From NCBI GenBank assembly GCA_026417375.1, contig JAOADJ010000033.1:1-64000 (forward strand): a DNA stretch of 64,000 nt. Reading direction: 5' to 3'. Of this stretch, positions 28,851 through 39,082 are shown in pieces. The translations under genes and the position numbers were made by a program. A model generated the notes under the pieces. The model saw nothing but the letters and a program-made list of their open reading frames with translations, was not told the DNA's origin and searched no databases. The DNA is from Melioribacteraceae bacterium. Its GTDB lineage: Bacteria; Bacteroidota; Ignavibacteria; Ignavibacteriales; Melioribacteraceae. Positions within the stretch are counted from its first letter, which is position 1; each line of letters opens with the position of its first letter.

Positions 28851-30008
28851 TCATACTTTCAAGAATATTTTTTTCTTGTAAAATATCCACATTACACCAA
28901 GCCAAAGTAATACATAAAAAATTGCCCACGCTAATGAAGCATTAATTGGAGATAGAAATGAAGTGAATAAATTATCATATAAAAAATTTTTAAGATTAGT
29001 TTTTGAACCATCATAATCAAATTTTATTAATCTTAAAAATGTTCCACCAATCCAGGAAAGTGTATAAACAGTGATTGCATTTGTTCCATAAACAACAAAT
29101 GGTTTTGTCCACCATTCATATTTTTTAATATCTACAAACCAATAACACATTGCAAAAAAATGAAGAGCTAACCCACCTGTAAATAAAACATAAGAGCTTG
29201 TCCATAATGCTTTATTCATTGGAAATGATAAATCCCAAAATAACCCTAGAAAAATTAGAATATTTGCTGAAGAGAAAATCCAAATTAATTTAGTTAGTTC
29301 ATCAAATTTTGATTTCAAAAATTTTCCCAATAGAACACCTAACATACCTGTTACTATTGCTGGAAGTGTACTTAATATACCTTCGGGATCCCAAATCTTT
29401 GTTTGACTCCATAAATGACCAGCGAGAATTTTATTGTCAAACCATGCAACTATATTTGGTGCAATTTCTTTTTGTAAAACAGGATCAAAGATTGTTGGTT
29501 GTGATAAATTTGGCATACCAATACCCGGAATTGGAACAAGAGTTATTAATGCCCAATATCCTAATAAGAGAATTACGGAAATACTTATTTGTGTTTTCCA
29601 CTCGGTGAACAAAAAAATAAGAGAAATAAAAAAATAAACTATTGCAATTCTTTGAAGAACACCAAGTACTCTTACTTCTGAAAGATGAAAATTTGGAAAA
29701 GCATTTAGAAAGAGTCCGATAAAAAAGATCAGAAAACTTCGACGAAAAATTTGTAAAATTAATTTATTGAGATTATCGCCTCTTTCTTTTCTTTTACTTA
29801 AAGATAAAGTAACAGAAACACCAACAATAAAAAGAAAGAAGGGAAAAACTAAATCTGTTGGTGTGCATCCATTCCATTTCGCGTGAAGTAATGGTGAATA
29901 TACATTTCCCCAATCACCAGGATTATTAACTAATATCATACCGGCAATAGTAATACCACGAAAAACATCTAATGATATTAATCTATTATTATTTTGTGAT
30001 GATGGCAT
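28851..30008 (-). CDS. HGSNAT/DUF5009-type membrane acetyltransferase-like protein
   Basis: A 385-residue polytopic protein of about ten helices. The start RLISLDVFRGITIAGMILVN, then HAKWNGCTPTDLVFPFFLFI, is the hallmark of the bacterial relatives of heparan-alpha-glucosaminide N-acetyltransferase. These proteins are thought to move acetyl groups across the membrane to amino sugars and are frequent beside glycan-degradation genes. It is the last gene of the six-gene glycosidase operon, 3 bases after the lipoprotein gene. Its target sugar is unknown. Confidence 0.85.
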   Translation of the reverse strand: MPSSQNNNRLISLDVFRGITIAGMILVNNPGDWGNVYSPLLHAKWNGCTPTDLVFPFFLFIVGVSVTLSLSKRKERGDNLNKLILQIFRRSFLIFFIGLFLNAFPNFHLSEVRVLGVLQRIAIVYFFISLIFLFTEWKTQISISVILLLGYWALITLVPIPGIGMPNLSQPTIFDPVLQKEIAPNIVAWFDNKILAGHLWSQTKIWDPEGILSTLPAIVTGMLGVLLGKFLKSKFDELTKLIWIFSSANILIFLGLFWDLSFPMNKALWTSSYVLFTGGLALHFFAMCYWFVDIKKYEWWTKPFVVYGTNAITVYTLSWIGGTFLRLIKFDYDGSKTNLKNFLYDNLFTSFLSPINASLAWAIFYVLLWLGVMWIFYKKKIFLKV

Positions 30009-30011
30009 TGA

Positions 30012-30320
30012 TTATATTCTTTCTAATCCATTTTCTAATGATATAGATGAATTAATATTTTCATCTTTAGGGAATGACAATTCTTCTTCAAAACTTAATA
30101 TCATTTCAGATTCTTCACCTTCTTTGATTATCTTTACTTTGAATCCCCATTTTTTATTTTTTTTTGTTTCGTTTGAGTTGTTACCTTCTTTAGAATCAAG
30201 TGTAATTTGTAACATAAGCGAACTTAAATTTTGATTGAAGAAATTATTTTGTTGTGCGTTGCAACTTATTAAAATCGAAAATACTATCCAAAATTTTTTT
30301 AAAAAATATTTTTTATTCAA
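30012..30320 (-). CDS. Small putative lipoprotein
   Basis: A 102-residue protein of unknown function. The N-terminus has a basic start, a hydrophobic run and a lipobox-like LISC at about residue 20, followed by NAQQ. The mature part is short, charged and rich in Glu and Lys, with no recognised domain. The only usable start is a TTG at 30320. It lies between a glycoside hydrolase gene 18 bases upstream and the HGSNAT-like gene 3 bases downstream, so it belongs to the glycan operon. Confidence 0.6.
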   Translation of the reverse strand: MNKKYFLKKFWIVFSILISCNAQQNNFFNQNLSSLMLQITLDSKEGNNSNETKKNKKWGFKVKIIKEGEESEMILSFEEELSFPKDENINSSISLENGLERI

Positions 30321-30338
30321 ATAAAAATTTTTTCTTGC

Positions 30339-32957
30339 TTAATAAAATATTTTTTTTATCATTTTTTTTACTTTCATAATTATTTTGTGTTTTATAAAAC
30401 TTTCATTGTTGCTTCTTACAAATATTTTTAAAGTATTTTTTTCGATATAAGCACCTTGAATTTCACTTACCATATTACTATTACTTATTCCAATATTGTA
30501 AATTCTGTTTGGTTTAACTTCACAATTAATTGATAGTTCATTTTTATTTAATTCCTGAGAAATAATTTTTATACCATCATTTATACTTCCAACCTTTATT
30601 TCTTCTTGAAGTGGATAAATTGCAGGAAAAGGATTTGTATAAATTTCAATATTTGCTTTTTCTCTTAATTCAAAATTCATATTTAATTGTATTGCTTGTG
30701 AGTTATTAATTATTTCATAATTAACTTCTTTTCCATTCAATAAAACTTTTTTTATTTCATAACCTAAAGGTAAATCCGGAGAGAATGAGAAATTAATTTT
30801 GTTATTCGTATTTGAATTTATATCCAATTTAATAATATCATTTTGATTCTTATAATTAATATTTATTGTGTTATCTGCAACTTTAATATTTTCAACATTA
30901 AAATAAGTCCAATCAACTGGAACTTTTGGTGCAAATGAAATTTTATTTTCAATTGAATTAACTTCTATACCGAGCAAGCCTTGTACCAAAGGAAAAATAA
31001 ATCCACTAACAGAAAAACCCTGATTATGATATGCTTCAGAAAGTTTTGTGTAAATATTTCCTGAAAAAACTTCCGGCATTACACCTAATCCAAAATTAAA
31101 AATGTTTTGTAATGTATTGTTAATTGTTTTATAACCTTGAAAATTAAAATGCGTGTTAAATTGAGCAGCGCCAATAAAAAAAGAATTGAATGACCAGACA
31201 GTGCCGTAATTATAATTTGCCGGATCATATAATGAAGAATTTATTGATAAATTTCTCGCGCCCCAGTCCGTTGTCAAATCGTTTTCGTTAAATTTTTCAA
31301 TTGTTAATTCACTTCTTTTTTTATTATATAGATTAAAAGCAATTGGTGTTGAAGAGTAAATATTTTTATCGCGAACCTGATCACCATTTTCAGATGCACC
31401 AAAACTGTAAAACTGAAGATCTTTAATCCAATAAATTTCTTCTAAAGATGTTAATGCTTTATCGAACAGTGTTTTAGTTTCTTCTTCAATTTTTTTATCT
31501 CCAACTATTTTAGATAAATAATTAATTTCTTTTAATGCTTTTGTCCAAATTGATTGAGTATAATTATCATTAAATATTTTTACAAGTGTACCAAATTCAA
31601 GAACACCTAAACCTGCACCTTTTAAATCCATTAATCCATCACCATTGCTATCTTTTGATTTACACCATTCGTATGCTTTTATTATTGAATTCCAACTTTG
31701 TTTTAAGAAATTTACATCACCACTTTTTATGACATAATCACTTATAGCAACTAAATACCATGGAGTTGTATCTGCATGATTATAACCATAATGATAATCA
31801 TTCCACCAATCAATTAATCCATCGCTTTGAGAAAGTTCATGTGCCATTTTGCCAATATCTGTTGGCTTATCATTTTCATTTTTTAATTTTATTGGAAAAT
31901 CTTTTTCTCTTTGCCATTTCTGAGCAAATTTTAACGCATCTTTTACAGTATTAAAATCCTGAAATGAATTTAAAGCAAGAGAATTAATAAATGCATCACC
32001 ACCAAAAAACCAAGCAAAACCTGGTCTTCCACCATTTCCACTTAATCCATAACCAGCCACTAATCCTTTTCCCAAGTTAGGATTTTCAACCAACAAGTTT
32101 TTTAAAGCAATTTTTCCAAGTTTAAATGCAAGGTTAAGTTTTTCATTTGGAGTTGAGATATTAATTGTATTGTTCAATAAATCTATATAATAATTTTTTG
32201 TTTCATAAAATAATTTTTCAACATTTTTTAATATTGAGTTATAATAGTTCTTAACATCATCAAATTTATTTTTTTGTGGAATACCTGCAATGATAATTGG
32301 TAAAAAATTATTTGTATCATTTGGTTTAATATCAATCCGAAATTGAATTGGGCTATCTGCAAACATATGTGCAGGAGGAGCTGTCATTTGTTTTGCAAAA
32401 GGAGAACCACACAAAAATGTTCCTCTTCTTTGTGATTCTGAAATCACATAAGCATTTAATTCATTATTCCAATAGCTATATTGTCCACCAATTCCAGCAG
32501 GCCATTGTGGTTGCATAACTGGTATAAAACCCGGCACAATAGATAAAGGAATTGTAGTTTTAACATCGAGTAAAATAATTGATGCAGTTTGATTATAAGG
32601 GATAAAAATTATTTCGTTAATAGTGAATGATTCATAAACAAATGATATAATTGTTGCATTAGGAGTAACTGTTATTTCTTTTACAATTTCTTTTGATTGA
32701 ATTGGTTGAGTTGATGAGCCAATAAAGAATTGTAAATCGAAATTTTTTAAAACTTTCCATGGCCAAATCCAGAATTCAAAAGATCCATTTTCAAAACCCA
32801 TTAATGCTGCTTTTTGCCCTATCTTATCAAAATATTGTGTTGATTGTGCAACTCTCGTCAAAGTAATATCATTTCTATAATCAAACTTTCGGACAAAACC
32901 TTGTTGTGTAAAAGTTATTGAATTTAATAAAACTATTAATGTTATTAATTTTTTCAT
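30339..32957 (-). CDS. Exported glycoside hydrolase, (alpha/alpha)6 type (glycogen-debranching-like)
   Basis: An 872-residue exported protein. A signal peptide (ITLIVLLNSITFTQQ) precedes a beta-sandwich N-terminal region of ~270 residues. The catalytic-type helical barrel begins near VAGYGLSGNGGRPGFAWFFGGD and includes ADTTPWYLVAISDYVIKSGD, DSNGDGLMD and DLTTDWGARNLS. A C-terminal beta domain ends the protein. The layout resembles the amylo-alpha-1,6-glucosidase/GDE and GH63-GH37-like superfamily; the exact family and linkage are not assignable by eye. It is a paralogue of the 1073-residue protein at 35727, but has GD where that protein has RD. The ATG at 32957 has AGGTGA upstream; a GTG lies two codons before. 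Confidence 0.75.
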   Translation of the reverse strand: MKKLITLIVLLNSITFTQQGFVRKFDYRNDITLTRVAQSTQYFDKIGQKAALMGFENGSFEFWIWPWKVLKNFDLQFFIGSSTQPIQSKEIVKEITVTPNATIISFVYESFTINEIIFIPYNQTASIILLDVKTTIPLSIVPGFIPVMQPQWPAGIGGQYSYWNNELNAYVISESQRRGTFLCGSPFAKQMTAPPAHMFADSPIQFRIDIKPNDTNNFLPIIIAGIPQKNKFDDVKNYYNSILKNVEKLFYETKNYYIDLLNNTINISTPNEKLNLAFKLGKIALKNLLVENPNLGKGLVAGYGLSGNGGRPGFAWFFGGDAFINSLALNSFQDFNTVKDALKFAQKWQREKDFPIKLKNENDKPTDIGKMAHELSQSDGLIDWWNDYHYGYNHADTTPWYLVAISDYVIKSGDVNFLKQSWNSIIKAYEWCKSKDSNGDGLMDLKGAGLGVLEFGTLVKIFNDNYTQSIWTKALKEINYLSKIVGDKKIEEETKTLFDKALTSLEEIYWIKDLQFYSFGASENGDQVRDKNIYSSTPIAFNLYNKKRSELTIEKFNENDLTTDWGARNLSINSSLYDPANYNYGTVWSFNSFFIGAAQFNTHFNFQGYKTINNTLQNIFNFGLGVMPEVFSGNIYTKLSEAYHNQGFSVSGFIFPLVQGLLGIEVNSIENKISFAPKVPVDWTYFNVENIKVADNTININYKNQNDIIKLDINSNTNNKINFSFSPDLPLGYEIKKVLLNGKEVNYEIINNSQAIQLNMNFELREKANIEIYTNPFPAIYPLQEEIKVGSINDGIKIISQELNKNELSINCEVKPNRIYNIGISNSNMVSEIQGAYIEKNTLKIFVRSNNESFIKHKIIMKVKKMIKKIFY

Positions 32958-32972
32958 TATCACCTTTATTAA

Positions 32973-33575
32973 TTATTCTTCTAAAAATTTTCTCAAATCA
33001 TTTCCACTTATAAAATATTTCTGTCCAATTTTTTTACCTTTAAGCTTTTTAGTTTCTATTAGTTTAATTACATCGTTCTCTTCTATTTTAAGTTTTTTTG
33101 CTATTTCATTTGAGGTAAAAACATCTAATTCATTTTTATCTTCAGAAGGCATACTGACTATTTTTACATCATTCCTTTTATTTACAAGATAAATTGTATA
33201 ACTGAATTTTGGATCTTTAGAATATTCATAAGTAACAAATTTTTTATCTATATAATTTTCATGTTGAACATAAAATGAAACAGAATCTACCTTATAATTT
33301 TCTTTTTGGAATTCTCCGCTGAGATTAACAGTTCCAGATGTATCTGTAACAAATGAAAATAATTTTTCTTTTGTTTCATGAATTAAATAATCAACTGGTT
33401 TATAATAAATTTGAATAATTACGGATGCATTAGGCAGCGATTTTTTATCAACATTTTTGATAAAAACTTTTTGTGCAGTCACTTGATTTGATATTAAAAA
33501 CAATAACAACAATTTTAAATTGAATCTGAAAATTGCATTTAATTTTTCACTACAGTTAAAAAATATTTTGTTCAT
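32973..33575 (-). CDS. Exported beta-sandwich protein with C-terminal excisionase-type helix-turn-helix
   Basis: A 200-residue protein with an unusual layout. Residues ~15-35 look like a signal peptide (LLLLFLISNQVTAQ). Residues ~36-135 form a beta-rich domain like carboxypeptidase-regulatory or Cna-B modules (SLPNASVIIQIYYKPVDY, TDTSGTVNLSG). Residues ~150-200 match the excisionase/MerR-type HTH_17 domain (VFTSNEIAKKLKIEENDVI then KGKKIGQKYFISGNDLRKFL). A DNA-binding fold on an exported protein is unexpected; it might serve in protein or glycan contact, or the N-terminus might be an anchor. The ATG overlaps the upstream hydrolase gene by four bases. No function is assigned. Confidence 0.7.
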   Translation of the reverse strand: MNKIFFNCSEKLNAIFRFNLKLLLLFLISNQVTAQKVFIKNVDKKSLPNASVIIQIYYKPVDYLIHETKEKLFSFVTDTSGTVNLSGEFQKENYKVDSVSFYVQHENYIDKKFVTYEYSKDPKFSYTIYLVNKRNDVKIVSMPSEDKNELDVFTSNEIAKKLKIEENDVIKLIETKKLKGKKIGQKYFISGNDLRKFLEE

Positions 33576-35725
33576 TTACTATACCTTTCAATTAACACTT
33601 TAGCAATAATGCTATCCCAAATATAATTTGATGGTGAGTTAAGATTTTCATTATCTGCACTATAGGATTCCCAAAAATTATGATTCTTTTTAAGTTGTGT
33701 TTTAACTGCAAGTATCATTTTATCTGCAATTTGATTTGCAATTTTATTAAAACCATATTTTTTAACCCCATCATAAACCATATAATTCCACAATAACCAA
33801 ACTGGTCCATTCCATTTACAACAATAATCTACATAAGGAGAATACCAAATATCATCAGCCGCCAAAGTCGGTATTCCATATTTTCTCCAAAACTTATTTG
33901 GATTTATTAAATGTTTAATTAACTCATTTGCTTTTTCTTTTGGTGCAACATTTGCCCATAAAGGTAAAAAGCCTATTATTTCCATTCTTCTTAAATCGCG
34001 GGTTAAAAATTTAAATGAATGATCTTTCTTGTTTATTGAATAATAAAACTTACTACTATCATCCCACATATTTTCGTTAATTAATTTCGCTGTTAATGTT
34101 GCAATATTTTTCCATGCTTTAGAAGCAACAGTTTGATTTAATTCATTTGCCATTAAAGAAAGTGATTTCATTTCATTAACCATCATTGTAGTTAAGTCTA
34201 AACATTCAAGTTCATCAGAAATATCTTCTTTATCAACATCAAGATGCCGATCTTTACTTACCTGAAAAACAGCATTGTACCAATCACGAACATTTTCAAT
34301 TATTCCATAAGGACCCCATTCATACATTCCATCTTTATCAACATCTCGGTTGTTAATTAACCACTGCAAATATTTTACTCCACTATAATAAGCGTCCATT
34401 AAAAATTTTCTGTCTTTACTTACTTTATAAATTTCCCAATTTATCCAACTATAAAAAGGAGCTGAAGTTGTTGACATTTCACGATTAAGTTCTTTACTGA
34501 AGTGTGGATAATCCTGCAATCCCCTTGGTCCATGACGATATGCAATTAATCCATCTTCACGTTGTTGCTCCATGTAAACTCTTTGTGAGTTTTGAGCTGA
34601 TAATGGATCTAAATAAACATACGCCAGCATACTTAAAGATTCGTGTAAAACCTGATGACCATGTCCCCATCCCCATATTGGTTCACGTGAAAAAACATAA
34701 AAATTATAACTTGTTTTTTCTGCCGGTGGATAAAAACAACCTCTTACCAAATTAAATGCACTCAAATAAATTAGTTTTTCATCATTTGTCTTAAACTTTA
34801 TTCTAGGGATTTTTGAAAAGAGTTTTACATTTTCATCTACATATTTTTGAAGTGATTCTGTTTTTAATTTTTCAATTTCGTTTTGGAGTTTTATTAAATC
34901 ATCTTTTTGATTTTGATAGCCACGGATGTATCTGAAATTAATTTCTTCATTTGGTTTTAATTTTATTTTGCTATGTAGAGAAACATAATTTACTAAACCA
35001 TCATTTTTTTTATTTAAAGAATCATTACGATTTTCTGAATAGTAATCAGTTTTTATTGTAGTATAAAATTTTTCAACTGATTTATTATACCCCCCATAAG
35101 AATAGTTAATAATATTTGATGTGAAAATGTTTCTTAAATCGGTTGGATATGGTGCATTTTTATAAAGAGAACTAATTAATCTATATTTTGTTTCGGTATG
35201 ATTAGTAATATATGAATTGTTTTTTTTATCAAATTGAAAGATATAAAGTGAGTCATTTCCTAATTCGTGTATTGGATATAATTCTATATCATGTGCAATA
35301 TTATCAACATTTTTTATTTGCATATTTACTAATGCAATTGAAGAACTATAAACAAAAAATGTTTCTTGAACTTCAATTCCACGGAATGGTGAATAACTTA
35401 ATATTGCCATATCCGGAAATGATGATGTAACAACCGGCTCTTTAAAATATTCACCTGTGTTCATAATAACTACCTGATCAACTTTCCATATGCAAAAAAT
35501 TTTTCCACCTTGTTCGCTACCATATGTTATCGGCAGGTTTGATGAATAATAATTCATCTTGTAACCTTTATCACCATAAAGTGTTGAACGATTTATTGTT
35601 GCTGTGTATGTTGTGTAAAGTGGATCATTTGACTGAGCATTAAAAGTTAAAAATTTATCATTCACTTTTAAAGACTGAGCATGAAGTGAAGTTATTGTCA
35701 GAAATAAAATTAAAATGTTTTTCAT
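33572..35725 (-). CDS. Exported GH63-like glycoside hydrolase
   Basis: A 717-residue exported protein. The signal peptide ends at SLHAQS. A ~300-residue beta-sandwich is followed by an (alpha/alpha)6 barrel with SREPIWGWGHGHQVLHES, QREDGLIAYRHGPRG, DVDKDGMYEWGPYG, and close to the end KWNGPVWLLWNYMVYDG and NFWESYSADN. The WNGP(V/I)W and FWE(S/N)Y blocks are typical of GH63/GH37-like alpha-glucosidases and trehalase-like enzymes. The likely role is removal of terminal alpha-linked glucose or related sugars from a glycan; the substrate is not known. It begins one base after the stop of the 1073-residue hydrolase. Confidence 0.78.
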   Translation of the reverse strand: MKNILILFLTITSLHAQSLKVNDKFLTFNAQSNDPLYTTYTATINRSTLYGDKGYKMNYYSSNLPITYGSEQGGKIFCIWKVDQVVIMNTGEYFKEPVVTSSFPDMAILSYSPFRGIEVQETFFVYSSSIALVNMQIKNVDNIAHDIELYPIHELGNDSLYIFQFDKKNNSYITNHTETKYRLISSLYKNAPYPTDLRNIFTSNIINYSYGGYNKSVEKFYTTIKTDYYSENRNDSLNKKNDGLVNYVSLHSKIKLKPNEEINFRYIRGYQNQKDDLIKLQNEIEKLKTESLQKYVDENVKLFSKIPRIKFKTNDEKLIYLSAFNLVRGCFYPPAEKTSYNFYVFSREPIWGWGHGHQVLHESLSMLAYVYLDPLSAQNSQRVYMEQQREDGLIAYRHGPRGLQDYPHFSKELNREMSTTSAPFYSWINWEIYKVSKDRKFLMDAYYSGVKYLQWLINNRDVDKDGMYEWGPYGIIENVRDWYNAVFQVSKDRHLDVDKEDISDELECLDLTTMMVNEMKSLSLMANELNQTVASKAWKNIATLTAKLINENMWDDSSKFYYSINKKDHSFKFLTRDLRRMEIIGFLPLWANVAPKEKANELIKHLINPNKFWRKYGIPTLAADDIWYSPYVDYCCKWNGPVWLLWNYMVYDGVKKYGFNKIANQIADKMILAVKTQLKKNHNFWESYSADNENLNSPSNYIWDSIIAKVLIERYSK

Positions 35726-35726
35726 T

Positions 35727-38700
35727 TCATTCTCTAAAATTAATTTTCAAGGTTTTATTTATATATTTTTCATTGCCTTCATCAAAATTTACTTTAACAT
35801 TATAAATATGATTTTCATATTTAATCATTTCACCATTTTCAATTTTCTCAATTTTCTTTTGAGGAGAAAATATTTTTAATGTGTCAATATTGTTTTTCAA
35901 ACCTTGTACTTCTATTTCATAATTATTATTGGAATATTTTTCTGAAACAATTCTAAACCCTTTGGAAATATCATTTGGTTTTGGTAAAACATAATGAGGT
36001 AAAACTTTCGGATTGTTTTTATTATTAAATGTAACAGAATAGTTTTTCTTCAAATAAAAACTATCAAGCTGATTTTCATATTTAACATAGAATTTTATTT
36101 TTTTATTATCATTTGAAATAAAATTAAATCTTGTTTTTCCATTAACTTTTTCAAAGCTAAAATGAATTACTTTGTCTCCAACTTTTATATTATTAACTTT
36201 CAAATAATTCCAATCAGCTGGTAATTTTGGTTCAATCTTGATTGATTTATTTATTGCATCTATTTCTAATCCAAGAAGTCCTTCTATTGTTGGTTGGATT
36301 ACCATTGTTTGACTCCAACATTGCTGAGGACAAACGCCGGATGGTTTATATTCATTTCCATTAAGAACTTCTTCAATTGCACCAAGTTGCCAATTTTTAT
36401 AAATCAACAAATTATTCATAAGATGTGTAAATGCTTGAACATCATTTTGATATTTATATTCAGCTAAAGCTGTCCAACCTGTAAAAAGAGGCCAAACACT
36501 ACCGGTATGATATCCACCCGGATTATAAATTTTACTGTCATTTCTTAATATTCTAACACCCCAATCTGAAGAAAAATAATTTTCTGAGTAATCTTTTAAC
36601 ACTGTTTTTGCTTTTAAGGAATCAATCATATCAAAATAAATTGGTACGGCAGATAAAACAGTTTTTTCATTATTATAACTTCCATCTTTGAGTTTTGAAA
36701 AACTAAGAGTTTGCTTTTCCTCATCCCAAAATTTTGTATTAATAATTTTTTTAACTGTTTCATAATCTTCAAAATATTTTTTTGCTTCATTAAATAATTT
36801 TAGTTTATCGAAAATATAGCCCGACCATTTTAATGCTTCAGCCCAACAAGCAGCTAAATAAACTTCAGTATGAGCTGTGTAAAGCCCACCACCTTCAACC
36901 CAACCATGACCAACATTCGTATTTTCAATTAAATTATCTTTATCTGTATCAGTTGAATAACAAAATTGAATTGCTTTTTTAATATGATCAATATTTTGTT
37001 TAATAAAATTAATATCACCGGATTCTTTTAAATATCTTCCGCAAAGAATTAAATAAAGAGGAGTTGAATCACTGGCATCATAATGAACAACACCCGAAGT
37101 TGTTAATTCATGAAATATTTTACCATTAATATCTTGATACTTATTAAACATTTTTATTATTGATTTAACAGTTTCATAATCTCCCAAATCGAGCAAAGCA
37201 AAACCACTCCACACACCATCGCGGCCAAAATACCACGCATAACCCGGACGACCATTTATTTTATGTCCACCATTCCAGCCACGTGCTGTAGTTGAATAAC
37301 CTGCAACAATAGACTTTCCTATTTGTGGTGTATTTACAATAAATTTTTTTGTGCCAATTAACGCCCAATTATAACCTTCATTAAAATCTTTATCGGGAGA
37401 TTTTATTGATATTAATTTCTTTAATTGATTTTCGTAATGTTTTTTGGATGAATAATAAGTTTGATATGTATTTATCAATGATGATTTATAATAACTAATA
37501 AGTTTATTTATATTTTCATTTGAAGATGAAATTACAACATCAAAGTATTTTGTTTGACTTGCATTTAGTTCTACTAATGCTTGTTTTGTTAAATTATCTA
37601 CATTATCAATTGTATAGTTTTTTATTTGAGTATTAAACCCAATTAAAGTTGAATATATTTTTCTTTCATCCTGAATAATAAATGCGTTTAAATTTTTATT
37701 CCAATCAAAATTTATATTTCCTAAAACATTTTCGGAATAGGGCCACATTAATCTCATGTTGGATTGAAATTTTATGAAAAGCTTTTTGTTTTTGTTGTTT
37801 ATTATTTCATAATGAATAATTGCGACTGGTTTATCAACAGAAGTTGTAATTACTTCTTTTAACTCAATTTCGTTTGCTTTGTAAATTCTGACAACACTAT
37901 TTGGATAAACTTCAATTTTTGATATAAGATTTTTAAACCAATTTATTGTATCATTTTCTTTAAACCCAATTTCATAATTTTTTAATGCCATGAAAGGATG
38001 CGACCATATTTCATCTATTCCATTTTTTTCTTTTCCCATAACTAAAATTTTTTCACCTGCTACATTCCAATAATTATCTGTTGCAGAAACTCTTGTTAAT
38101 TTAATTTCTCCATCAGTTTTCCATTTTTTTGAATTATTAAATTTTACTTTTTCAAAGTTTCTTTGAATTAATTCAGCTGAAGAGAAATCATTCCAAAAGT
38201 ATTTTTGAGTGTCAACTTTATTTTGAGTTAAATATTCGAAACAATTTGTAAGAAATTTTTCAAAGTGATTTTTGTTTTGATTTATCATATCAAAATAAAG
38301 ATATGCTCCACAAGCAAGAATTTTTCCTTTTCCGAAATCATATTCTAAAAGAAGCTTCGAATTTTCTTTTAAAGTAATATATGACCAATCAACAGCAATA
38401 ATTTTTCCTTTTAATTTTTTTTGATTTTCAAAAAATCCGACTTGCCTAATTTTAATATCTTCAATTGGATTAAAAATATATGCCCCGCCATAAAGACCAT
38501 TAAAAACCGGATGATTTATAAATGAGTGTAACCCAAATTTTCTGCCGTAACCTTCATCAATTGCATAAACATATTTTGAAATTGGTTCTTCACTTTCAAC
38601 TTCTAATACATTTAAATATTTCAGGGCATCTATGGACAAAAATAATTTACCGCCATCTGAAAGATATTTTTTTAATGAAGAAATAAAACTTTCATCATAT

Positions 38701-38948
38701 TCATATTTATGCAATTTGGTTGAATCAACGCGATGAATCCATACTAAGGGAAAATTTTTCAGCACATTTATTTCTTTAGCATCATCAAATGAAATTTTCT
38801 CAATATGAATATTACTCTGATTTTTAAAGAAACTATATGCAGCACTAAATTCAATTTGGTTAACAGAGGAATTATCAAGTAGAGCAATTTTGATTTGGGA
38901 TAGAAGGTAAACAGGAAAAATGATCAAGATGAGAATTATTTTTTTCAT
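35727..38948 (-). CDS. Exported multidomain glycoside hydrolase with N-terminal Rossmann-like domain
   Basis: A 1073-residue exported protein and the first gene of the operon. After a signal peptide (IILILIIFPVYLLSQ), residues ~18-240 form an alpha/beta domain resembling class-I glutamine amidotransferase-like/ThuA-type folds (KYLSDGGKLFLSIDALKY, GKGKILACGAYLYFD) without an obvious nucleophile. A beta-sandwich follows, then an (alpha/alpha)6 barrel with VAGYSTTARGWNGGHKI, NGRPGYAWYFGRDGVWSG, DASDSTPLYLILCGRYLKES and GGYHTGSVWPLFTGW, and a C-terminal beta domain. The barrel resembles glycogen debranching/amylo-1,6-glucosidase proteins. No SusC/SusD pair lies beside the operon. Confidence 0.77.
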   Translation of the reverse strand: MKKIILILIIFPVYLLSQIKIALLDNSSVNQIEFSAAYSFFKNQSNIHIEKISFDDAKEINVLKNFPLVWIHRVDSTKLHKYEYDESFISSLKKYLSDGGKLFLSIDALKYLNVLEVESEEPISKYVYAIDEGYGRKFGLHSFINHPVFNGLYGGAYIFNPIEDIKIRQVGFFENQKKLKGKIIAVDWSYITLKENSKLLLEYDFGKGKILACGAYLYFDMINQNKNHFEKFLTNCFEYLTQNKVDTQKYFWNDFSSAELIQRNFEKVKFNNSKKWKTDGEIKLTRVSATDNYWNVAGEKILVMGKEKNGIDEIWSHPFMALKNYEIGFKENDTINWFKNLISKIEVYPNSVVRIYKANEIELKEVITTSVDKPVAIIHYEIINNKNKKLFIKFQSNMRLMWPYSENVLGNINFDWNKNLNAFIIQDERKIYSTLIGFNTQIKNYTIDNVDNLTKQALVELNASQTKYFDVVISSSNENINKLISYYKSSLINTYQTYYSSKKHYENQLKKLISIKSPDKDFNEGYNWALIGTKKFIVNTPQIGKSIVAGYSTTARGWNGGHKINGRPGYAWYFGRDGVWSGFALLDLGDYETVKSIIKMFNKYQDINGKIFHELTTSGVVHYDASDSTPLYLILCGRYLKESGDINFIKQNIDHIKKAIQFCYSTDTDKDNLIENTNVGHGWVEGGGLYTAHTEVYLAACWAEALKWSGYIFDKLKLFNEAKKYFEDYETVKKIINTKFWDEEKQTLSFSKLKDGSYNNEKTVLSAVPIYFDMIDSLKAKTVLKDYSENYFSSDWGVRILRNDSKIYNPGGYHTGSVWPLFTGWTALAEYKYQNDVQAFTHLMNNLLIYKNWQLGAIEEVLNGNEYKPSGVCPQQCWSQTMVIQPTIEGLLGLEIDAINKSIKIEPKLPADWNYLKVNNIKVGDKVIHFSFEKVNGKTRFNFISNDNKKIKFYVKYENQLDSFYLKKNYSVTFNNKNNPKVLPHYVLPKPNDISKGFRIVSEKYSNNNYEIEVQGLKNNIDTLKIFSPQKKIEKIENGEMIKYENHIYNVKVNFDEGNEKYINKTLKINFRE

Positions 38949-39009
38949 AAGAGTAATAATTTTAATTACAATATGATGAAAGAAGAGGAAAAAATCTAAA
39001 GAAAATTTG

Positions 39010-39082
39010 TACCCCCGACAGGACTCGAACCTGTGCGCATGGCTCCGGAGGCCATTGCTCTAATCCACTGAGCTACGGGGGC
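39010..39082 (-). tRNA. tRNA-Arg (anticodon CCG)
   Basis: Read on the minus strand from 39082, the 73-base sequence starts GCCCCCGTAGCTCAGTGG and folds as a cloverleaf. The acceptor stem is GCCCCCG with CGGGGGT. The anticodon arm is ATGGC, loop CTCCGGA, GCCAT, giving anticodon CCG, which reads the arginine codon CGG. The T arm contains GGTTCGAGTCC. The discriminator is A and no CCA is encoded. Confidence 0.96.

Follow-up and report, generated by a model that had tools for sequence, protein, structure and literature searches.

The gene described here raises the question of what a helix-turn-helix (HTH) domain of the HTH_17 family, whose members are usually presumed to be DNA-binding, is doing at the C-terminus of a protein with a signal peptide. 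The gene lies in a 64,000 nucleotide stretch of a Melioribacteraceae genome (contig JAOADJ010000033.1, positions 1 to 64,000; the window) and is assigned to the genus Stygiobacter. The first-pass annotation of the window left two possibilities open, namely that the fold has been reused outside the cytoplasm or that the protein has an unusual route or topology. The frame (32973-33575, minus strand) has an ATG start and no internal stops over 200 aa, and the start of the gene overlaps the stop of an upstream glycosidase gene (ATGA). Its parts are listed below, with a slash marking the likely cleavage site.

32973..33575, minus strand: whole gene, 200 aa, with signal peptide, transthyretin (TTR)-like sandwich, linker and winged HTH (from sequence, profile and orthologues).
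33474..33575, minus strand: signal peptide (Sec-type), residues 1-34, likely cleavage VTA/Q (from sequence and a simple rule).
33186..33473, minus strand: beta-sandwich of predicted TTR / carboxypeptidase-D regulatory-like fold, residues 35-130 (from a model of the mature protein).
33126..33185, minus strand: variable low-confidence linker, residues 131-150 (from pLDDT and identity).
32976..33125, minus strand: HTH_17 winged helix-turn-helix (wHTH), residues 151-200 (PF12728 above cut-off and superposition on BldC).
33042..33083, minus strand: recognition-helix segment, residues 165-178, with an acidic residue at 168 and an aliphatic one at 170 (lowest conservation within the HTH).
32976..33041, minus strand: wing and last helix, residues 179-200, the proposed binding face (highest conservation within the HTH).

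The C-terminal domain was confirmed as HTH_17, as the annotation had proposed. PF12728 matched residues 153-200 with 35.0 bits (cut-off 27, E 1.7e-8), the score being 38.2 bits in the whole-genome search, and the other four full-length homologues scored between 28.3 and 38.1 bits, which places 5/5 orthologues above the cut-off. The modelled domain (pLDDT of 73-89 by block for residues 151-200) superposed on BldC (6amk_B) with a Z of 8.8 and an rmsd of 1.3 over 50 residues, a Z near 8 being middling by the search tool's own scale. The HTH call is not dependent on the models, because the sequence profile supports it independently. BldC of Streptomyces, a MerR-like wHTH protein (PDB 6AMK/6AMA) of the same topology as the window HTH, is placed in the HTH_17 group (PMC11963761) and is described as a 68-residue DNA-binding regulator that uses Arg30, Lys26 and Thr residues (PMC5859096). 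Unlike BldC, the window HTH is predicted to be exported, is fused to a sandwich and has an acidic and an aliphatic residue at the two Thr positions.

The wHTH fold is also common to the window protein and to excisionases/RDFs (Pukovnik Xis and RdfS; 4j2n, Z 7.4, and 8dgl, Z 6.1), RdfS being placed in HTH group 17 (PMC11963761). The earlier label of an excisionase-type domain therefore stands for generic wHTH kinship but not for the excisionase family itself, as the TIGR01764 (excisionase) score of 21.7 bits was below the cut-off of 28.8; the window protein further differs from excisionases in being predicted to be exported and in lying on a contig with no match to a tyrosine integrase (PF00589). 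Superposition was also obtained with the C-terminal wHTH of TraN of pIP501 (Z 6.4), described as a cytosolic protein with two wHTH motifs that binds upstream of its own operon promoter (PMC10877727). The best NCBIfam match of the domain was MamR, yet at 36.1 bits it was far under the MamR cut-off of 100. MamR is described as a magnetosome protein of approximately 72 aa with an HTH_17-like domain, which controls crystal number and size and is entered as "-" in the transmembrane column of the source's table as available (PMC3905215). Matches to archaeal RNA polymerase subunit H (E 0.017 and E 0.16) were put down to chance.

The HTH protein appears to leave the cytoplasm, a location predicted from its N-terminus, which has a basic n-region, a hydrophobic stretch and VTA/Q. 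In all five orthologues a basic start is followed by a hydrophobic stretch, with A/Q or S/Q at the expected boundary and a mean identity across this region of just 24%, low sequence identity being typical of signal peptides. A simple home-made rule for signal peptides (Met starts only) was passed by 5/133 distinct HTH_17-like domains, these being the five orthologues, and by 0/128 of the others, which come partly from a subset of the listed matches (80 regions, mostly frames of at least 100 aa, out of a larger number of matches) and partly from the other searches, and are called cytoplasmic simply in the sense that no signal peptide was seen. Seven of 13 window genes passed the same rule, which missed a GH116-like neighbour that looks exported by eye. 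With a signal peptide predicted in 5/5 orthologues, the cytoplasmic location of the HTH_17 / MerR-BldC-Xis group would not be shared by these proteins. The signal peptide, called convincing in the annotation, was thus borne out by sequence features and by the rule, and the unusual route or topology that it had offered is unneeded, since an ordinary Sec-type signal peptide would explain export. Its premise that DNA-binding modules are cytoplasmic in known systems was too broad, as ComEA is described as binding DNA in the periplasm (PMC3879209). A lipoprotein reading was rejected on inspection by eye, a convincing lipobox being absent.

Two models both gave a TTR/carboxypeptidase-D-like fold for the N-terminal domain (mean pLDDT 70.8 and 76.0, each built from only five sequences). 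In the mature-protein model the sandwich matched the TTR-like domain of carboxypeptidase D (5aq0_B; Z 9.8, 79 residues, rmsd 2.5) and the N-terminal extension of SusC (SusCdex NTE, 9hfj; Z 9.3), with an S-layer protein (8qox_B; Z 10.2, 89 residues) as the best row; the first model gave the 5aq0_B and 9hfj likenesses lower Z values of 6.5 and 6.1. No Pfam match for the sandwich was found among families at E up to 1, including CarboxypepD_reg. The suggested beta-sandwich of carboxypeptidase-regulatory type therefore holds at the level of predicted fold but not of Pfam profile, and the domain differs from its CarboxypepD_reg kin in this respect and in preceding a wHTH. A search with the sandwich alone matched 4/395 genomes at E 0.01; two of these matches are of the same family as the HTH protein, while the other two are weak (E 0.0017 and 0.005; loci L200 and L201) and of different architecture by eye.

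The same architecture, which the annotation had proposed to look for in other genomes, was found in four of the five further genus genomes. Among 58 genomes searched, six had a match, namely the window genome, the genus genomes G001, G002, G003 and G005, where the match was nearly full-length, and G056, where it was confined to the HTH part in a 76-residue frame; the family's 28 remaining genomes in this search had none. A profile built from the five proteins matched 35 of 395 genomes of the phylum (a search in which G002, G003 and G005 have no row), over its whole length only in G000 and G001; in the other 33/35 the match was confined to the C-terminal part (profile positions 115 onward, of 193). 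Across the 58- and 395-genome searches, the full architecture was confined to this genus, occurring in 5/6 of its genomes examined. No relatives were found in viral contigs, plasmids or phages, and no description of an exported HTH_17 domain was found in the open-licence literature, which is weak evidence of absence.

Mean pairwise identity among the five orthologues, which come from one genus and represent a single lineage and not independent events, was 24% for the signal peptide, 53% for the sandwich, 39% for the linker (residues 135-150, where pLDDT is <50) and 62% for the HTH. Within the HTH, identity was 53% for helix 1, 44% for the recognition helix and 80% for the wing with the last helix; this ranking, with the recognition helix at the bottom and the wing and last helix at the top, is new here. 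Synonymous sites are strongly diverged (pS 0.46-0.88, sandwich and HTH). The comparison domains were clustered by single linkage at 50% identity, giving seven clusters with at least three members, one of them without usable pairs. For the remaining six, recognition helix versus wing and last helix gave 0.85/0.62, 0.61/0.56, 0.84/0.58, 0.71/0.74, 0.70/0.78 and 0.81/0.67, compared to 0.44 versus 0.82 for the exported five. The wing was slightly the more conserved in 2/6 clusters, with a gap as large in 0/6.

The positions of DNA contact were transferred from BldC, for which base contacts by Lys26 and Arg30 and phosphate contacts by Thr27, Thr29, Trp31 and Lys33 are described (PMC5859096). An offset of 141 (helices 14-21/155-162 and 25-34/166-174) places them at 167, 168, 170, 171, 172 and 174 of the window protein; the wing was not aligned residue by residue with BldC owing to a one-residue gap. 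For column counts, 20/128 comparison domains with fewer than 40 aligned residues were excluded, leaving 108. Position 168 (Thr27) is Asp/Glu in 5/5 exported proteins versus 7/108 comparison domains, and position 170 (Thr29) is Ile/Leu in 5/5, with I/L/V in 8/108; by cluster, an acidic 168 is the majority in 1/28 and I/L/V at 170 in 3/28. Residues suited to DNA contact were thus not found at 168 and 170. Position 171 (Arg30) holds K, K, L, D and N, with K/R in 2/5 versus 48/108, which is no clear difference; position 172 (Trp31) is Leu/Met in the exported set, Leu also occurring in 40/108 comparison domains, and position 174 (Lys33) holds E, E, E, K and K, being basic in 61% of comparison domains. 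Net charge over residues 165-176 is -2, -1, -1, 1 and -1 in the exported set versus a comparison mean of +1.26 (sd 1.31), and whole-HTH net charge is inside the comparison range. Arg195-Lys196 is invariant in 5/5 exported proteins; comparison domains are basic at 195 in 3/76 and at 196 in 10/64 (just 76 and 64 of the 108 have letters in these columns), and in none are both basic. The part expected to read DNA looks worn in five related species, while the other face is tightly kept. Two HTH_17-like domains followed by a PTS-IIA-like region (by eye; loci L059 and L060) have a recognition helix partly like the exported one, that on L059 having the same pattern of acidic 168 and aliphatic 170.

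The simplest account of the sequence match, the conservation pattern and the locus, together with the predicted folds, is that the protein would be an extracytoplasmic adaptor (periplasmic or released) whose winged HTH docks by its basic wing/last-helix face and not by reading DNA sequence. A MerR/BldC/Xis-type wHTH would in this case have moved outside the cytoplasm as a docking domain, with its recognition helix decommissioned and a new invariant basic face (Arg195-Lys196). Each of these two statements is given a probability of roughly 0.5. The pre-protein would be exported by Sec and cleaved at VTA/Q, as suggested by a sequence pattern kept in five species, and the TTR/carboxypeptidase-D-like sandwich, a fold taken from the models, would serve as scaffold or binding domain. 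The C-terminal wHTH would retain its fold and stop reading DNA sequence, its recognition helix having drifted, and the nearly invariant basic wing and last helix may dock to a partner, most likely an anionic polymer of the envelope or an acidic surface on a different envelope protein. The gene sits at a tRNA-Arg locus, where exported hydrolases are present in most genus genomes examined. Counting against the adaptor, the five orthologues stem from one lineage with strongly diverged synonymous sites, the domain still passes HTH_17, its whole-domain charge is ordinary, positions 171 and 172 hardly set it apart, the L059 domain has the same pattern at 168 and 170, and two comparison clusters weakly share the direction of the conservation difference.

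Of the two possibilities left by the annotation, it is reuse of the fold outside the cytoplasm that the architecture in five species and the erosion of the recognition helix support, and the fold probably now serves another kind of binding. If it does work outside the cytoplasm without reading DNA, the protein would be a small and testable example of how the fold of a transcription factor can be adapted to the envelope, and would call for caution in the automated annotation of HTH_17 domains. A kept wing with a lost recognition helix would offer a simple criterion for spotting further cases.

The HTH may alternatively be a structural or stability element without a ligand, a fold gained by fusion near a tRNA that caps or multimerises the sandwich. 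The fusion is seen only in this genus, a low-confidence linker joins the domains and the locus beside tRNA-Arg is variable, all of which agree with such an origin. This alternative is considered doubtful, as the HTH is on average more conserved than the sandwich and a domain serving only as a cap would have no use for the charged residues that are invariant in its wing and last helix.

An extracytoplasmic nucleic-acid binder, holding the DNA or RNA backbone nonspecifically through its basic wing (in biofilm adhesion, uptake or scavenging, in the manner of ComEA), is judged unlikely. ComEA itself binds DNA by a helix-hairpin-helix, a different fold; the window protein is likewise predicted to be exported and has no Pfam match to a helix-hairpin-helix domain. 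In favour of such binding are the basic residues that do not vary in the wing or last helix, the match of the fold to DNA-bound BldC, the existence of exported DNA-binding proteins such as ComEA (PMC3879209) and the description of DNA recognition by MerR/BldC-type domains as partly by indirect readout (PMC5859096). Against it, the position of one phosphate-contacting Thr is acidic and that of another aliphatic in 5/5, and no DNA-uptake gene was recognised among the neighbours inspected by eye. The loss of two contact positions in the recognition helix speaks against extracellular DNA contact, which the annotation had thought conceivable, though nonspecific contact through the basic wing may occur.

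The N-terminal segment of the window protein is long (34 residues), as would suit an uncleaved anchor of an inner-membrane protein with both domains periplasmic. This arrangement is improbable, given that a boundary of the form (V/I/S/L)x(A/S) followed by Q lies at the same place in 5/5 orthologues and resembles those of several exported neighbours.

The genomic setting includes the following features.

39009..39082, minus strand: tRNA-Arg (CCG), marking the edge of the variable locus and separated from the first gene by 60 nt (also at the locus in five other genus genomes).
35727..38948, minus strand: first gene of the run, a GDE_C/MGH1-like glycosidase of 1073 aa with a signal peptide (from profile and rule).
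33572..35725, minus strand: upstream exported MGH1-like (PF22422) glycosidase, its stop overlapping the HTH gene start (from profile and signal-peptide rule).
30339..32963, minus strand: downstream glycosidase with a DUF608/GH116 match, exported-looking by eye (from profile).

The exported glycosidase setting described in the annotation was upheld by these flanking frames and their Pfam matches, tRNA-Arg being followed in the window by two glycosidase genes, the HTH gene and a third glycosidase gene. The tRNA-Arg (CCG) is at the locus in 6/6 genus genomes. In G001 the order is an S9-type peptidase (by eye, like that of G002), a GH63-like gene, the HTH gene, a TIR_2 gene and a GH116-like gene; in G003, where the locus is spread over three contigs, it is a PIN-like gene (by eye), a similar peptidase, a GH63-like gene, the HTH gene and a GH116-like gene; and in G002 it is a DPPIV/S9 peptidase, a GH3 gene, the HTH gene and a short remnant of a GH116-like C-terminus. 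The HTH gene is without hydrolases in G005, where homologues of two flanking glycosidases were searched for and not found, and in G004, where toxin-antitoxin-like genes (by eye) follow the tRNA on a contig that stops at this point, neither the HTH gene nor the two searched glycosidases were found. At the far end of the locus stands an HGSNAT-like gene in the window, G001, G003, G004 and G005; in G002 this gene is on a different contig. Between the tRNA and the genes for the HGSNAT-like protein and a 102-aa protein, the HTH gene is kept in 5/6 genomes while the hydrolases vary. It is also a mostly constant, unexplained element of a tRNA-linked exported-hydrolase locus in Ignavibacteria. That the gene is kept in G005 without homologues of the flanking glycosidases weakens the case for a strict partnership with them. 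Its persistence through the exchange of its neighbours speaks for a function independent of any single glycosidase.

The retention of the gene in 5/6 genomes while hydrolases vary, and an HTH above the Pfam cut-off, would also be consistent with an export-coupled regulator, in which a pre-protein kept in the cytoplasm by limited export would act on DNA and lose that activity once exported, tying hydrolase transcription to export capacity; FlgM follows a similar logic. Such a regulator is also improbable here. Its recognition helix is poorly conserved, and the gap that follows the tRNA measures 30 nt (G005), 60 nt (window), 73 nt (G002), 111 nt (G001) and 660 nt (G003, to the PIN-like gene), so that an operator would hardly fit in the shortest. 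A cytoplasmic HTH-only form made from an internal start was rejected, Met142 being missing in 2/5 orthologues (G001 and G003). Least credible is an artefact, named in the annotation as a sequencing error joining two genes, by which a frameshift or sequencing error would fuse the gene of a secreted protein with one for a cytoplasmic HTH protein; this was ruled out by the same unbroken frame in five genomes, the four other proteins being 42-65% identical to the window protein.

The variable tRNA-Arg (CCG) locus corresponds to window positions 28851-39082 and to loci L011, L012, L013, L014, L194, L195 and L197. A part for a mobile element was rejected, there being no integrase match on the window contig and the tRNA 3' end matching only the tRNA itself within the window. 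A partial extra copy was seen by eye after the tRNA in G001, and L195 of G004 has one degenerate match of the tRNA 3' end with 3 mismatches. Toxin-antitoxin-like genes (PIN-type by eye) lie beside the same tRNA-Arg in G004 and G003 (L194 2981-3561 and L197 2986-3405). The TIR_2 gene of G001 (L014 10214-10975; 36.1 bits, cut-off 28) is situated between the HTH and GH116-like genes, and the GH116-like C-terminal remnant of G002 (L012 477-692) is directly downstream of the HTH gene. A small lipoprotein-like frame at 30012-30320 of the window (102 aa, TTG start, no Pfam match) has counterparts at the locus in G005, G001, G002 and G004.
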